Source of the DNA: a virus
Virus record (IMG/VR): IMGVR_UViG_3300013108_000165
Location: 1-26,070 of that record
Direction: 5' to 3' (one strand)
DNA length: 26,070 bases
In this document: piece after piece, positions 3,222 through 22,264 of the stretch
Layout: each line of letters starts with the position of its first letter
Numbering within the stretch: position 1 is the stretch's first letter
Notes under the pieces: generated by a model
What the model was told of the DNA's origin: nothing
Database searches by the model: none
What the model saw: only the letters and a program-made list of their open reading frames with translations
Position numbers and translations under genes: made by a program

Positions 3222-4942
3222 AAGGAGAAGGGATCTGCGCCGAAGGCGGATGTGGGAGCCCCGTGGTGGAGCCAGGAGTGGTTGGTCTGTTGAGGGGTGC
3301 CTGCCAGGGTGTCCCATTCGGCCTCGGCGCGTGCGCGGAGCTCTGCTTGGGCGTCCAGCAGGATGGTGGCGTTAAAGTGACCCACGGCCAGCGCCAGACA
3401 GTCCAGGCGGTCGTCGTGGGCAAGGCACTGCTTCTCAGCAGTCAGGTGGGTCATCTGGAAGAATAGTTGGCGGTCCCGCTGGCGCTCCAGGGAGTCCTCA
3501 GAGTGCGGCACGCGGTCGGAGGAGAGCACGCTCTCATGTACCACCAGGCGGTGGCCCTCAATCACGGGGGCCAGGGTGTCGATGATCCGCTGCTCCTTCA
3601 TCTGGGAGTTGCGGACCTCTTCAATCGAGCAGGGGTAGATGCGGTTGAGCACGGGCTTGAGGAGTTGCGAGAACATCCCGTCCCCGAAGTTGCTCTCCAC
3701 CACGATCTTCTGGGCACGCACGCGGGCGCACTCACGGGCGATGGCTTCGAGGGTGTCCTCGCTGTAGCCGCTGAGGAGACCAAAGCATCGGTGGAGGAAC
3801 AGTTGTCCTCCCAGGGAACTCATGGAGACCACAGCGGTCTCATCGCGGCCCCGTGCGGACGGGTCAACCGCCACGATGGTCTGGTCGAACTTGGCGTACT
3901 CCCCGATCTCGTCCCCGGCGCTGTAGAAGCCGTCCCCGTGCATACCCACGTTAGGATGCTCCTTCAGGCGGTACATCGGGTGGTTGCTGTGGACGTAGAC
4001 CTCTCGGGCCTTGTCCGCAGGGAACGAGGCGACCATGAGGTCCTTGGTCTTCAGGGGGAACTTCTCGGCATCGCTGAGGGCCGTGGAGAGCATGAACTGG
4101 AGCATGAAGCCCAGCGTGCCGTAGGAGAGCCGACGCTCCGCGATGTCGTGCTTGGGGAAGCGTGAGGGCTCCACGGAGGTGCCGGGGGCCTCCCCGTCGT
4201 CGATCATCTTCTGGACCATCGGGGCGAGGTTGCCCCGGTACCCCTCGGCGGTGTGCTCCTCGGGGACCTCGATGGGCCACACGCGGGTGCGGTAGCCACG
4301 CTCCTCAAGGGTCGCATAGATCGTCTCCATGCTCTGGGGTGTCCCCAGGATCCGCACACGGGGGTCAACGCTGAGTTCCTTGCTCTCGGGCAGGAGAATA
4401 GCGTCGATCTCCTTGATGCTCTCAGAGAGCTTCTCGCGCATCGCAGGGGTCGCAGAGTTCGCAGGGACCTCAACGTCATCGAGGACGATGAGGGAACCAC
4501 GGGCTCCGGTGATCTGCCCGGTGATACCAGCGGCCTTCACGGAGGGGCTGTGAGCCCCTGCCTTGGCTGCACCGACATCGAAGGAGATGTTGGAGTCCCG
4601 GTCGCCCCGGTTCCTGTCAGGGCGTAGGTGCTGTAGGAAGGGCACCTCGTCGATGAGACGGCGGGTGAACTTCACGAAGGAGTCAGCACGCTCCTTGGAT
4701 GCCGAGATGACTAGGCACTTCTCCTCAGGGTTCAGGAAGAGGCTCCAGAGGACGTAGGCCGAGCATAGGTAGGACTTGCCCACCCCCCGGAAGGCGTGCG
4801 TCTGGTTACGCTTGCCGCCGTACTGGAGCCAGTCGCAGATGTCCCGCTGTACCGGGGTGAGGGGCGGGAGGTTCAGGTGCTTCCAGATACGCTCTGAGAA
4901 GACCTTGAAGTCGCGGGCGGGGTGATCTGCGGGGATTTTCAT
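3218..4942 (-). CDS. terL: Terminase large subunit (T7 gp19-like), 574 aa
   Basis: The ATPase-nuclease motor that packages phage DNA into the prohead through the portal. The N-terminal ATPase domain has a Walker A-type loop FRGVGKSY at residues 51-58, ASKERA near 81-86, and Walker B LIVLDD at 151-156 followed by the acidic VE. Residues ILGTPQS (198-204) fit the coupling motif. The C-terminal RNase H-like nuclease shows VAVDPSARGRDE with Asp360, VVESNFGDG with Glu416, and HDDRLDCLALAVG with Asp511/Asp514. The length is close to T7 gp19 (586 aa). It starts in an ATGA overlap with the 202-aa gene and ends in one with the 106-aa gene. The GC-rich sequence shows no frameshift. Confidence 0.96.
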   Translation of the reverse strand: MKIPADHPARDFKVFSERIWKHLNLPPLTPVQRDICDWLQYGGKRNQTHAFRGVGKSYLCSAYVLWSLFLNPEEKCLVISASKERADSFVKFTRRLIDEVPFLQHLRPDRNRGDRDSNISFDVGAAKAGAHSPSVKAAGITGQITGARGSLIVLDDVEVPANSATPAMREKLSESIKEIDAILLPESKELSVDPRVRILGTPQSMETIYATLEERGYRTRVWPIEVPEEHTAEGYRGNLAPMVQKMIDDGEAPGTSVEPSRFPKHDIAERRLSYGTLGFMLQFMLSTALSDAEKFPLKTKDLMVASFPADKAREVYVHSNHPMYRLKEHPNVGMHGDGFYSAGDEIGEYAKFDQTIVAVDPSARGRDETAVVSMSSLGGQLFLHRCFGLLSGYSEDTLEAIARECARVRAQKIVVESNFGDGMFSQLLKPVLNRIYPCSIEEVRNSQMKEQRIIDTLAPVIEGHRLVVHESVLSSDRVPHSEDSLERQRDRQLFFQMTHLTAEKQCLAHDDRLDCLALAVGHFNATILLDAQAELRARAEAEWDTLAGTPQQTNHSWLHHGAPTSAFGADPFSL

Positions 4943-5547
4943 GAGAATAGTTGTTTGAGTTGGTCAACGGACGTAGCCAGTACGGCCCGTGACACGGCGC
5001 TTGGTTCTTCGTCTTCGCGGTAGTGGACAGCGAGGTAGATCATCTCGGTGCCTGACAGTTTCAGACGGTACAGGCAACCCCGTTTGATTCGGGCGGCGTC
5101 CCAGATAGCCCGCAGGGTGGAGTCCTCCGGAAGTTCCTGGGGGATCTTACACAGAGTGCCCTGCTCCGCGAGTTCACGGACAAGGTGGATGTAGTGCTGG
5201 TCCGCCTGGCGCTCCTGCCACCGGGTGTTGTGTACCACAGAGTCGTGCAGGGTCCTGAAGGACTCATGGAGCACACGGATGAAGATACGGCACCCCGGCT
5301 GGGGGATACCGCCGCTGTTAGACGAGCGGATTATCATGACCCGGCTGATGTCCGTGTCGGACGCCAGGATCTGGTTGAGTTCCTCGTAGATTTGGGTGAT
5401 CTTGCGGAGACCGGACAGGTGCCTTCGCTGGGCGCGGCCCTTAATGACGGAACGCACCGTCTTGCAGGTCTGTCGGATCAGCACAGGGCCAACAGCCCCT
5501 GCGCCAAAGAGGACGCCGATCAGCTCCAGGAGTGTTTGTTTCGGCAT
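4939..5547 (-). CDS. Membrane-anchored protein of unknown function, 202 aa
   Basis: One hydrophobic N-terminal segment, residues 5-24 (around LLELIGVLFGAGAVGPVLI), is followed by a basic stretch (KGRAQRRH near 36-43), predicting one membrane helix with a cytosolic domain. The rest contains ISRVMIIRSSNSGGIPQPG and, near the end, LSGTEMIYLAVHYREDE. The order of strands and helices is reminiscent of a GAF-like sensory fold, which is tentative. It lies between the HExxH gene and large terminase, where T7 has gp18.5 (Rz) and relatives carry holins and spanins, so a membrane or lysis role is possible. The single helix and large soluble domain are not typical of a holin. It overlaps terL by ATGA. 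Confidence 0.7.
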   Translation of the reverse strand: MPKQTLLELIGVLFGAGAVGPVLIRQTCKTVRSVIKGRAQRRHLSGLRKITQIYEELNQILASDTDISRVMIIRSSNSGGIPQPGCRIFIRVLHESFRTLHDSVVHNTRWQERQADQHYIHLVRELAEQGTLCKIPQELPEDSTLRAIWDAARIKRGCLYRLKLSGTEMIYLAVHYREDEEPSAVSRAVLATSVDQLKQLFS

Positions 5548-5867
5548 CAGTGATCGCCATAGATCGCGCGGTAAGCATCAGAGTAGGCCAGCCCCCACAC
5601 CGCGTCGTGGGAGGAGCCGTAGTAGTCGGTAGAAAGAAGGTGGGCGTACTCGTGGACGAGCACTTCCACTGCGAGGGCCTCGTTGAGGTCCGCGCGAAGG
5701 TCGATGAGTGCGCTGCGCGACCCATCCTTTTGGCTGAGAACGTCGGACTCCCCGAACCCCTCCATCTTCCGCCAGCGAAGGCGAACAGGAAAGGGAACGG
5801 GGAGCACGTTGGTGAGCACGGTGAGGACTTCTCGGGCACGCTTACGCGCGTTCCGATCAGCTTCCAT
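5547..5867 (-). CDS. Small HExxH zinc-metallopeptidase-like protein, 106 aa
   Basis: Residues 71-77 read VHEYAHL, a classic HExxH zinc motif (His72, Glu73, His76). His87 lies ten residues further on as a possible third ligand (HExxH-x10-H). The motif sits in a helix-like context after ALAVEVLVHEYAHLLSTDYY, as in many small metallopeptidases. The N-terminus is basic and helical (RNARKRAREVL). There is no signal peptide, so action is cytoplasmic or in the virion. The ATG at 5867-5865 lies 11 bases inside the small-terminase gene, and the TGA shares one base with the next ATG. Substrate and role are unknown. Prohead maturation, host-protein cleavage and a catalytically dead structural use are all possible. 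Confidence 0.7.
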   Translation of the reverse strand: MEADRNARKRAREVLTVLTNVLPVPFPVRLRWRKMEGFGESDVLSQKDGSRSALIDLRADLNEALAVEVLVHEYAHLLSTDYYGSSHDAVWGLAYSDAYRAIYGDH

Positions 5868-18642: not shown

Positions 18643-19644
18643 TCAGGCAGCACTGTCGTAGATCGTGGCAAGGCACTCGGGGCGAAGAACCCCGTGGCCG
18701 CAGACGATCTTGGAGACAAGCAGGGTGCCCTGACGCTCGACCTGGTAGTCGGTCTCGGTCTGGACGCTCTGGCGCATGACGGTGCCGATGGCACCACGCT
18801 CCATCGCGAGGGCGGTCACACCACGGGCGGTGGTGTAGTCCGAGTTCTCGCCAGAGCCGGGGGTGACGGCGCTTTGCGGGAGGTGGTTCGTCCACTCGAT
18901 GTTAAACCCGTAGCCCTTGAAGATCGCGCCGTTCGCCTGCGAACCGTTCCCGGCGTTGCCGAAGTCGGTGTTGAGGAGGGCGCCGTACTTCTGGAGGGCG
19001 TAGTATTGGTCCGGGCGGATGAAGAACGTAACGTCGTCCATCGGGACATCGCGCTCCGCGAAGCCGGAGGCCGCAGCGACCATCGCGTCTTCGAGGGCCT
19101 GCATACCCGCGGTGTCGGTTCCGTTCACGCCCGTCTTGTTGATGAGCTGGGAGTCCGTCTTGTCGGCGTTGATCGCCTCGGTGAAGTCCGAGCCAACGGA
19201 GGCAAGCGCGTGGTTCGTGGCGAGCGCGAAGAGCTGCTTGTCCATCTTGCGGGCCAGGGCCGCGCCAAGCTGGAAGGAGTATTCCGAACGGGTCTCGTAG
19301 TGCTTGACGAGCTCGTCCCAGTTGTCAACGAAGATGCTGGAAAGCAGCACTTTGTCCACGGCAATCGTGGTGTCCGTGTGCTCAACGTCCGAGAGGTAGC
19401 TCTTGGTGTTGTCGAGCAGCGACTCGCCGCGAACGTGGTACGCGGTGTCGGCCTGACCGATCTTCGGGAACTGGAAGTCCTTGCCCGCGCCGACCGTCAT
19501 GACGCGAGACTTCTGCATCATCAGGTTCTTGTCACGGAAGACATTGAGGACTTCGCCGGAGAACATCGTCAGCAGAAGCTGATCGGTGCCCGTGAGGTTC
19601 TTGTTGCCCGCGATGGTCACGGGGTCAACGGTGGGGTAAGCCAT
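18643..19644 (-). CDS. Major capsid protein (T7 gp10-like), 333 aa
   Basis: HK97-fold shell protein. The start is the ATG at 19644-19642 (MAYPTVDPVTIAG); the upstream in-frame extension begins at a GTG and has low-complexity, non-conserved sequence. Family features are LLLTMFSGEVLNVFRDKN followed by VGAGKDFQFPKIG and the stretch leading to VRGESLL, like the gp10 N-arm and E-loop, and later LARKMDKQLFALA and DVTFFIRPDQYYALQKYG. The length is near T7 gp10A (345 aa). I see no frameshift product. It has its own structured leader without a Shine-Dalgarno sequence and is followed by a terminator, so it can be expressed at a level separate from its neighbours. Confidence 0.95.
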   Translation of the reverse strand: MAYPTVDPVTIAGNKNLTGTDQLLLTMFSGEVLNVFRDKNLMMQKSRVMTVGAGKDFQFPKIGQADTAYHVRGESLLDNTKSYLSDVEHTDTTIAVDKVLLSSIFVDNWDELVKHYETRSEYSFQLGAALARKMDKQLFALATNHALASVGSDFTEAINADKTDSQLINKTGVNGTDTAGMQALEDAMVAAASGFAERDVPMDDVTFFIRPDQYYALQKYGALLNTDFGNAGNGSQANGAIFKGYGFNIEWTNHLPQSAVTPGSGENSDYTTARGVTALAMERGAIGTVMRQSVQTETDYQVERQGTLLVSKIVCGHGVLRPECLATIYDSAA

Positions 19645-19763
19645 AATAGCTAAAAGTGTAAAGTGTGTAGGGAGTGAAGTAACAGGGTTGCCATTCTGGA
19701 GTGCCCGCGTCTTCGACTTGTCCACCCTTGGGTGGGTCGCTGCATCATACTCCTACACGGCAG

Positions 19764-19810
19764 CACCGCAGCGTCCTGCCCTGGCCGGGGACTTAGGGAC
19801 CTCTGCGGTG
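19764..19810 (-). repeat. Inverted repeat forming a long stem-loop in the capsid leader
   Basis: Perfect 8-base arms at 19764-19771 and 19803-19810 (CACCGCAG and CTGCGGTG) enclose 31 bases. Inside them further pairing is possible (GTCC with GGAC). With the adjacent 19820-19840 hairpin it makes a compact structured RNA block directly after the lipoprotein gene. Confidence 0.5.
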
Positions 19811-19819
19811 TGTGAGATA

Positions 19820-19853: not shown

Positions 19854-20204
19854 TTATTCTTTGGGGCCGCGAATACGGCGAGACAACGCCAGGACACCAC
19901 CGCCGCTCGCGCCTCCGAAGAGGACAAGCAGGAGGATGTCGATGAGGTCGTTGCCTGTGGTCAGGATATCATCCCCGGCCTCGCGGGCAGCAGCATCCAG
20001 CCGCTCCGACGATTCCTTGAGGATCTCGCGGACGAGCTCGTCCCGCTCAAGTGCGGTGATCTCGCCCTCGGTGTAACTCTCGTCCACGCTATCGAGCAGG
20101 ACGGTGGTTTCTTCCTCGATGGCCTCGTACTTGGCACCGAACTCGGAGAAGGTGCCGCAGCCGAACAGCGGGAGGAGGAAGAGAAGGGGAAGGAGGTATT
20201 TCAT
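19854..20204 (-). CDS. Small lipoprotein with C-terminal membrane helix, candidate unimolecular spanin, 116 aa
   Basis: Residues 1-16 are a lipoprotein signal: MKYLLPLLFLLPLFGC, with Cys16 in an L-F-G-C lipobox. Residues 20-80 are charged and helical (EAIEEETTVLLDSVDE, LERDELVREILKESSERLD). Residues 87-107 are a hydrophobic segment (LIDILLLVLFGGASGGGVLAL) ending in basic SRRIRG. An outer-membrane lipid anchor at one end and an inner-membrane helix at the other is the layout of u-spanins such as phage T1 gp11 (131 aa), which fuse the two membranes in lysis. It lies between scaffold (ATGA overlap) and the capsid leader, an unusual place for a lysis gene. A membrane protein unrelated to lysis is the main alternative. 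Confidence 0.7.
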   Translation of the reverse strand: MKYLLPLLFLLPLFGCGTFSEFGAKYEAIEEETTVLLDSVDESYTEGEITALERDELVREILKESSERLDAAAREAGDDILTTGNDLIDILLLVLFGGASGGGVLALSRRIRGPKE

Positions 20205-20701
20205 AGGTTGGAGACGCCCAGGCGTCGCATGAAGTCTTCACGGTAAGCGGGGTCCGTCGCGTACTTCGGGTCGCGCTGGGCCGCAAGCATAGCCTCATGG
20301 GAGGCAAAGGGGACCACCCCGGACGGGGCAGCGGTGCCCTGGGCGAACGGGGCCGATGCGGCGCCCGACTGCTCGATCAGGCCGCGCATGATGGCGGTCT
20401 GGCCGTCCACAGAAGCACGGGACATGTCCGCGTTGATCGCGTCAAGCTGCGGCTGGGTCATGTTCTGCTGGGCCCACTCCATCGCACCGCGGACAACGCT
20501 GTCGCCGCCGAGGGCTTCGGTGACCTGACGGGCCGTGTCGCGCCGCCGCATCTCCTGGAGTTCAGCCTGGAGCTTCGCAACGTCCTCAGCGGTCGCCGGG
20601 GCAGCCTCAGGGGCCGCAGGGATCTCAAGAGACTCCACGGGGGCCGGGGCCGGAACGGGCTGGGGAGTAACGTCAACGGGTTGGGGGTTCTGGTCAGTCA
20701 T
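20201..20701 (-). CDS. Capsid assembly scaffold protein (T7 gp9-like), 166 aa
   Basis: Guides prohead assembly and leaves before packaging. The N-terminal 40 residues are rich in Pro, Ala and Glu and probably disordered. A helical segment follows (AEDVAKLQAELQEMRRRDTA). The C-terminus has the conserved scaffold tail that binds the shell: SHEAMLAAQRDPKYATDPAY then REDFMRRLGVSNL, like the F-x-S-x-x-E-M-x-x-A-x-x-D-P-x-Y-x-x-D-x-x-Y-R pattern of T7-type scaffolds. It is about half the length of T7 gp9 (307 aa). The ATG lies three bases after the portal stop. Confidence 0.85.
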   Translation of the reverse strand: MTDQNPQPVDVTPQPVPAPAPVESLEIPAAPEAAPATAEDVAKLQAELQEMRRRDTARQVTEALGGDSVVRGAMEWAQQNMTQPQLDAINADMSRASVDGQTAIMRGLIEQSGAASAPFAQGTAAPSGVVPFASHEAMLAAQRDPKYATDPAYREDFMRRLGVSNL

Positions 20702-20704
20702 AGA

Positions 20705-22264
20705 TCAAGCGGGGGGTTGTGCGGCCTGTTGGCGCATCATTTCGGGGCCGAGGGCTTCCACTGCCTGCTGCTGCTGTCGCTGCTGCATGATCTGGGCGAG
20801 CTCCTCTGGAGTACGAATGTATTGGTCTTTGGGCAGGTTGAGCGCGGTAGCCATGTCGGCGGCAACCGCGTCGAATCGAATGAAGTCCACAAGCTGGTCC
20901 GGCGGGACGCTCTGCTGGAGAGCCCCCAGGAACTGCTGGATCCGCATAGCCTTGTGGTTCCGCGAGATGGCCTCAAGGCCCGTGGCGATCACAGGCTGGA
21001 CCTCTTGCGGGATACCGGGGATGGTGCGGCGGATCCGGTTGAACAGGTACTGGACGATGGGCCGCTGGACCGTCTGGGCCAGGGCCGCGTAGGTGTTACC
21101 AAGGGCGTCCTCAAGTTCCTGAGCGACGAAGCGGATCTCCTCGGAGGTCACACGCTCACCTGCTCGCTGCACGGAGGAGTTCAGGAGGAAGCTCTTGGAG
21201 AGCGAAAGGGAGATGTCGTTCTGCTTCTGGTAGGCGATGGCGAGGTCTTGGCCCTTCTCGGCCTGGACCGCACCAACGTCCTCCGGGTCCCCCACACGCA
21301 CAGAGCCGTTGGGCGCCTTGGCGATGGATGCGGGCTTCGTAGCGGAGCCGGGGCGGGTGAGGAAGATGACCTTGCTCATGACCAGCGCGGCTTCCGCTAG
21401 GGCACGGGAAATCTGCTCAAGGACGAGCAGGTCACCGTGGAGGTCCTCAACGAAGCCACGCCCGTAGCTGTACCCGTAGATCGGGCAGAACTGGAGAGGC
21501 ATGAGGGGCAGGTCCGCCTCGGAGACCTCGCGGCGGGTGCCCTCGATGGGCTCCCCGGCGATCTCCTGGAAGAACTCGAAGCGACCGTTGGCGAGCCTGC
21601 GGGCTCCCGTGAACAGGTCGAAGACCTCTTTGTGGATCCCGCCCTCCATCGAGGCGTCCACGGAGGTCGAGTTCTGCTGCTCGCGGGTGAGTTCATGGCC
21701 CAGGCGCTCCTCGGCGTCCGTGCGCCCGATCCCCTGCCGCAGGATAACGGTGCGGAGGCGGTTGTCCGGGTCACGCTCGACAACGTAGTGCCGGAGGTCC
21801 GAGGTGATGGGGCTCTTGCCGCCGGGGCGGTCGTAGATCAGGGCGTTGCCCGTCACCACCAGGAGCCGCATGGCCTCAGCCAGGGCGGGACGCCAGCCCT
21901 CGGTGTCGAACTCAGAGAGAGCCTGCTGCTCCAGGAGTTGGAGGGAGGCCTCGATCTCCGAGACGACCGTGGAGGACTGCTCACCCGTCTCGGCCACGAT
22001 CTGGGCCTTCGCGTCGGGCGACATCTCCAGCCGCATGAACGGCAGGGTCGGCGGGAAGAGGGACAGCATCAACTTGGAGCTGAGGTTGTTCACCCCGCGT
22101 GCGCCGATGCTCTGGAAGTTATTGGGGAACTCCGCGCGGTTCATGTTCTCGCGCGGCTGTACGGAGGGGATGGTGAGGACAGCCGATTTGTGGCCGACCT
22201 CTAGAAACTCGTGCCGGACCTGTTCCAGGGCTCGGTACTGAGTTGAGAGGGAGGGGGAGTTCAT
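20705..22264 (-). CDS. Portal / head-tail connector (T7 gp8-like), 519 aa
   Basis: Dodecameric ring at the unique vertex through which DNA enters and leaves. Family features are the N-terminal VLTIPSVQPRE, FQSIGARGVNNLSSKLMLSL followed by FPP, the TGNALIYD segment near residue 140, and the clip and wing region with PLMPLQFCPIYGYSYGRGF. The C-terminus is Gln-rich (QRQQQQAVEALG), typical for the barrel. The length is near T7 gp8 (536 aa). It starts in an ATGA overlap with the HNH gene and has no Shine-Dalgarno sequence. Confidence 0.95.
   Translation of the reverse strand: MNSPSLSTQYRALEQVRHEFLEVGHKSAVLTIPSVQPRENMNRAEFPNNFQSIGARGVNNLSSKLMLSLFPPTLPFMRLEMSPDAKAQIVAETGEQSSTVVSEIEASLQLLEQQALSEFDTEGWRPALAEAMRLLVVTGNALIYDRPGGKSPITSDLRHYVVERDPDNRLRTVILRQGIGRTDAEERLGHELTREQQNSTSVDASMEGGIHKEVFDLFTGARRLANGRFEFFQEIAGEPIEGTRREVSEADLPLMPLQFCPIYGYSYGRGFVEDLHGDLLVLEQISRALAEAALVMSKVIFLTRPGSATKPASIAKAPNGSVRVGDPEDVGAVQAEKGQDLAIAYQKQNDISLSLSKSFLLNSSVQRAGERVTSEEIRFVAQELEDALGNTYAALAQTVQRPIVQYLFNRIRRTIPGIPQEVQPVIATGLEAISRNHKAMRIQQFLGALQQSVPPDQLVDFIRFDAVAADMATALNLPKDQYIRTPEELAQIMQQRQQQQAVEALGPEMMRQQAAQPPA

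Follow-up and report, generated by a model that had tools for sequence, protein, structure and literature searches.

What function could be served by a small, putatively two-anchored membrane protein encoded between scaffold and capsid in an uncultured T7-like phage? The window, by which we mean the whole analysed stretch of 26,070 nucleotides (IMG/VR record IMGVR_UViG_3300013108_000165), has a T7-like gene order that runs from portal through scaffold, a 116-aa gene, capsid, tail tube genes and internal virion proteins to terminase. On the minus strand, the portal (head-tail connector) gene (20705–22264; phrog_449, 4.2e-133) is upstream of a gene for a 166-aa scaffolding or head assembly protein (20201–20701; phrog_1052, 8.6e-15, and phrog_1018, 2.3e-4). 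The major capsid protein gene (18643–19644, start at 19644; phrog_267, 2.5e-57) lies on the far side of the 116-aa gene (19854–20204), a candidate helical u-spanin gene. A preliminary description had put the latter forward as a unimolecular spanin (u-spanin) without giving its strand, and we confirmed its open reading frame (ORF) on the minus strand, from 20204 to 19854. Its start codon overlaps the scaffold stop codon in an ATGA (20201–20204, minus), making translational coupling of the two genes possible.

The features first read in the 116-aa protein, namely a lipobox at Cys16, a helical charged middle and a C-terminal helix, can be read from its sequence, the helices as predictions that AlphaFold2 shares. 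The protein can be divided into a putative signal peptide (residues 1–15), the lipobox cysteine (Cys16), an acidic linker (17–86), a predicted membrane helix (about 87–107) and a basic tail. Cys16 lies within PLFGC and is preceded by an uncharged stretch; the phenylalanine at -2 departs from the strict form [LVI][ASTVI][GAS]C. The 70-residue linker contains 21 acidic and six basic residues and no proline. Beyond residue 50, the most hydrophobic stretch of 19 residues is 87–105 (mean Kyte-Doolittle 2.03), within a glycine-rich helix that is followed by the tail ALSRRIRGPKE (four basic residues, one acidic). The lipobox and membrane helix were called by a motif and hydropathy scan. We compared ORFs of 60–250 aa in the window with those in 200 order-1 Markov surrogates, looking for an early lipobox, an uncharged stretch preceding it and a hydrophobic 19-mer within the last 45 residues. 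One of 126 window ORFs, the 116-aa one, has this combination, as against one of 35,530 surrogate ORFs, a figure that measures rarity and is no blind test because the features were chosen after the protein was seen.

Nine contigs with relatives of the protein were recruited by direct searches and further contigs of the clade through capsid and portal protein searches; a family profile matched 15 of the 17 records given to it, so that each of the 15 viral contigs assigned to the clade has a homologue. The gene is absent from the other two records, L066 and L067, whose capsid proteins are only 29–30% identical. The 15 contigs yield nine distinct sequences, which share between 28% and 79% of residues with the window protein. 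Wherever the locus was read, the homologue was flanked by scaffold and capsid genes. Among seven closer members, dN/dS is 0.069–0.33 over 21 pairs, so the 116-aa ORF is a real gene under purifying selection; the 14 pairs of closer members with L023 or L024 are saturated (dN/dS 0.42–1.33) and uninformative. An additional profile search of viral contigs added no family member beyond the clade, none was found in genome contigs, and tblastn with three members against 50,697 phage records gave no match up to E 10. Searches of PHROGs, Pfam, NCBIfam and PDB sequences likewise gave no match to the family.

The two-anchor layout that had been proposed for the window protein is kept in all nine distinct homologues. 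A cysteine at position 16 or 17, leucine at -3 and glycine or serine at -1 are found in every member, and this cysteine is the only one in each protein, while the first hydrophobic stretch around it is largely variable. The lipobox reads LFGC in four members, LFSC in one, LVGC in two and LVSC in two, such that four of the nine follow the strict consensus and five have phenylalanine at -2. Glycine follows the cysteine, or leucine in two members, and aspartate in none. Linkers measured with a sliding window span 63–73 residues; the C-terminal helix, judged by hydropathy only, has a 19-residue mean of 1.63–2.11 in all nine, and each tail has four to six basic and zero to two acidic residues.

Spanins are recognised by layout rather than sequence. 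We compared the protein with known examples. In PMC6139136, u-spanins are defined by an N-terminal lipobox and a C-terminal membrane domain, and 58 of them are sorted into 13 families, one of which is shared by T1 and KP34. The same source reports a periplasmic cysteine in none of the 58, describes cysteines as ubiquitous in two-component spanins, and records deviant lipoboxes in spanins, AWAC being functional in gp11 (PMC6139136). The periplasmic part of the 116-aa protein had been remarked on as short. Its length stands, at 70 residues, but is no objection: by the same measure the linkers of SIO1, T1 and KP34 are 58, 84 and 86 residues, and two-component spanins as small as 62 residues in total are described in PMC6139136.

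The T1 gp11 family (T1, KP34, LIMElight and others) resembles the 116-aa protein in its lipobox, C-terminal helix, basic tail, similar linker length and absence of a periplasmic cysteine, and KP34, a member of the Autographiviridae, is reported in PMC4411677 to have a u-spanin. However, the periplasmic domain of the T1 family is described as beta-rich (PMC6139136), and u-spanin linkers are described as mainly beta and likened to class II fusion proteins (PMC6139136 and PMC7830690), whereas the acidic linker of the 116-aa protein is predicted to be all-helical. T1 gp11 and the KP34 protein also adjoin holin and endolysin genes, unlike a gene placed between scaffold and capsid. In sequence the window protein resembles neither T1 gp11 nor the KP34 u-spanin, and its linker is predicted to be wholly helical; the 116-aa protein does not belong to the T1 gp11 family. 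The marine T7-like cobaviruses are also reported to have u-spanins (PMC6775973); Roseophage SIO1 and its relatives are, like the virus of the window, marine T7-like podophages, and their proteins share the lipobox and C-terminal helix. The SIO1 protein carries a stretch, PNVAANVQAGAEN, that by eye resembles T1 and KP34 (PDVTAQVGAEN / PDVSAQVGAEN) and is absent from the 116-aa protein, and its gene is found outside the scaffold–capsid slot, further on than the tail and other late genes (PMC6775973). Lambda Rz/Rz1 has the job proposed here for the 116-aa protein, linking the two membranes once the wall is gone, and the Rz linker is also helical, but Rz/Rz1 comprises two proteins that form disulfide-linked homodimers, whereas the 116-aa protein is single and has no periplasmic cysteine. 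Our literature searches listed no helical u-spanin; the individual comparisons covered T1, KP34 and SIO1, and another helical one may exist among the other u-spanin families.

AlphaFold2, run on a nine-row alignment, predicted helices at residues 4–45, 51–97 and 103–111 of the window protein and no strands, giving an all-helical linker made of a helix, a turn at 46–50 and a second helix. Confidence was 77–91 per ten-residue block over residues 21–70 and low elsewhere, with a mean of 67.9. With the divergent member L023 placed first, the break fell at 46–50 again and strands were again absent (mean confidence 74.5; blocks of 85–93 across residues 21–70), the two runs being built on the same nine sequences and thus not independent. 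A Foldseek search of the family against BFVD and PDB returned nothing at E <= 0.001. If the two predicted linker helices packed as a hairpin, both anchors would be placed at one end and the periplasm would be left unspanned; such a linker would be expected after fusion, or in a protein confined to the inner membrane throughout.

We next consider the place of the gene. In T7, the lysis genes lie near the terminase, with the spanins between the small and large terminase genes, and relative to T7 the arrangement is unusual, as the preliminary description stated. That view does not extend to all relatives. We surveyed the scaffold–capsid slot in 14 annotated relatives, hand-picked among 40 matches listed of 1,338 records. 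In nine of them a protein encoded there is predicted to have a membrane helix (S45-C18, RHEph21, ctgrD200, LUZ100, BB8, Pasto, ProddE, HTVC041P and S30-C28); three have only small proteins lacking such a prediction (CRP-403, HTVC019P and P-SCSP2), and the remaining two have no annotated gene in the slot (Lau218 and CRP-114). As annotated, the slot of Rhizobium phage Pasto (L045:1057-2239) holds an endolysin, a holin, an i-spanin and an o-spanin, and that of Desulfovibrio phage ProddE (L046:1793-2437) an endolysin (lysozyme) and a holin. The endolysins match Pfam Amidase_2 (Pasto, 3.5e-17) and Phage_lysozyme (ProddE, 3.8e-18); the ProddE holin matches GTA_holin_3TM at 1.5e-4, under the curated cut-off, and our hydropathy scan gave no confirmation of a membrane helix in the annotated Pasto i-spanin. 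The position thus favours a lysis role for the 116-aa protein, since the same slot in these Autographiviridae holds membrane and lysis proteins. The comparison suggests that some Autographiviridae use the slot as a lysis locus, of which our literature searches listed no earlier description, and this would aid annotation of T7-like phages whose lysis genes have not been found. In three relatives the slot is occupied by small membrane proteins bearing LTPTPxDD (L010:2581-2769, L012:3320-3538 and L043:1375-1572). Those in L010 and L012 match phrog_9685, of unknown function, and the one in L043 was compared by eye only; these proteins are possibly holins.

The clade itself differs from Pasto and ProddE in the content of the slot. 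An endolysin and a holin are present in both of those phages, joined in Pasto by a two-component spanin; the clade has one two-anchor protein there. Among the ORFs scanned in the window and its 44-kb relative G001, none was recognised as an endolysin or holin, so that no lysis cassette was seen around the 116-aa gene in its own clade. Phage endolysins can escape family models. Read by eye, the slot showed no alternative-frame ORF with a lipobox, as a second, embedded spanin gene would have.

From layout and position, the 116-aa protein is probably a helical u-spanin that acts in late lysis. This reading draws on the two-anchor layout in nine of nine members, the lone cysteine, the presence in every contig of the clade, the slot used by lysis genes, the rarity of the combination, purifying selection, linker length and the u-spanins reported from marine T7-like cobaviruses. 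It is weakened by the lack of a recognised endolysin or holin, by dissimilarity to T1 and KP34, by a linker that is helical and not beta, and by the possible hairpin, as well as by the phenylalanine at -2, by the five of 14 relatives without a membrane protein in the slot and by poor model confidence outside residues 21–70. In the mechanism we envisage, the protein would be exported by Sec, then cleaved by signal peptidase II and lipidated at Cys16. Its lipid end would pass to the outer membrane, glycine or leucine and not aspartate following the cysteine, a rule that may not be the host's. Residues 87–107 would insert in the inner membrane, leaving the tail in the cytoplasm. Peptidoglycan would hold the tethers apart until an endolysin removed the wall, after which they could cluster; the two linker helices would then fold back at the 46–50 turn and pull the membranes together until outer and inner membranes fused and the outer membrane failed. 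That the protein is an all-helical u-spanin, whose helix-turn-helix linker joins the two membranes and folds back much as class I fusion proteins do, we regard as an evenly balanced proposition. Should the spanin function be true, the u-spanin design would have arisen with a helical linker too, and the fusion of two membranes by a single protein would become testable through the 46–50 turn.

The predicted helix-turn-helix also suits another reading, in which the two anchors of a phage lipoprotein both sit in the inner membrane and its hairpin linker stands in the periplasm. Such a protein would bind an envelope partner instead of fusing membranes, and would change the envelope while the infection proceeds, as in superinfection exclusion, or regulate a holin. 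A packed hairpin would set the anchors on one side, as this reading needs, and no endolysin or holin was found beside the gene. We nonetheless consider it unlikely, given a late-operon place among head genes, where some relatives have their lysis genes, and a cysteine that is not followed by the aspartate of inner-membrane retention. Superinfection exclusion genes, moreover, are usually expressed early.

Lower still in probability is a holin or antiholin that crosses the membrane twice (helices 3–15 and 87–107), the first helix being uncleaved. The glycine-rich C-terminal helix would fit, as would the holin-like proteins in the Pasto and ProddE slots, but an invariant cysteine with leucine at -3 and glycine or serine at -1, kept in all nine members while much of the first hydrophobic stretch varies, counts against it, and the family has no match to a holin family in Pfam, PHROG or NCBIfam. 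Two-component spanins are common, and the protein could in principle be the outer-membrane half of one, now with an additional anchor but still dependent on a distinct partner in the inner membrane. A tail-anchored small ORF of unknown function does occur elsewhere in the clade (L041:10209-10358; G001 41555-41761); its helix, however, is C-terminal, the wrong layout for an i-spanin, no i-spanin-like gene adjoins the 116-aa gene, and the periplasmic cysteine that PMC6139136 calls ubiquitous in two-component spanins is missing, which makes this reading very improbable. A structural protein of head or tail, as the location between scaffold and capsid genes might suggest, is scarcely credible in view of the signal peptide and conserved lipobox, with no match to a virion protein family in PHROGs and no significant structural match.

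Proximity to the capsid gene had been taken in the preliminary description to imply very high expression of the putative u-spanin, an expectation that our results do not bear out: the two genes are 209 nt apart, with a conserved structured RNA in between, no Shine-Dalgarno-like sequence was seen by eye ahead of the start codon, and no promoter was identified in a search covering sigma-70 types. Candidate phage-promoter repeats were also sought, yielding no convincing family.

The candidate RNA core (19685–19813, minus) is supported by covariation and lies outside the putative spanin gene. Further copies lie at L020:5027-5154, L023:3740-3859 and L009:3110-3225, and a covariance model run on 25 sources found the element in the clade members, while not one of the 14 annotated relatives gave a hit. 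RNAalifold predicted 37 pairs, 17 of them with changes on both sides. In eight distinct rows, 92.0% of cells pair, compared with 81.1% in shuffles and 34–48% when partners were slid, a test favoured by the derivation of the structure from the same sequences. Covariation was 0.365 against 0.176 in shuffles, none of 500 shuffles being as high, and the single-sequence fold gave z = -2.17. No Rfam family reached its gathering score (two weak hits fell below), and the element contains no tRNA. At the same place, directly before the capsid gene, RHEph21 (L012:3655-3728) and LUZ100 (L043:2125-2200) have a tRNA-Asn.

Other small genes were observed at some distance from the slot. Between the small and large terminase genes of the window lie a small protein with a HEYAH metal-site motif (5547–5867, minus), which has a weak SprT-like match below the cut-off, and a 202-aa protein with an N-terminal membrane helix (4939–5547, minus). 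The latter has a relative in L042 and none at that place in G001, and the basic stretch behind its helix counts against an i-spanin. Upstream of a nucleotide kinase gene, L041:10209-10358 and L040:1555-1761 are small ORFs with a strongly hydrophobic C-terminus, possibly holins; the L040 ORF has no family match. Finally, G001 (37322–41601, in L039/L040) contains genes that by eye look like QueC/D/E of 7-deazaguanine synthesis, close to one for a Mom-like protein (Pfam PF25680 at 1.4e-5, short of the cut-off); together these suggest modified phage DNA.
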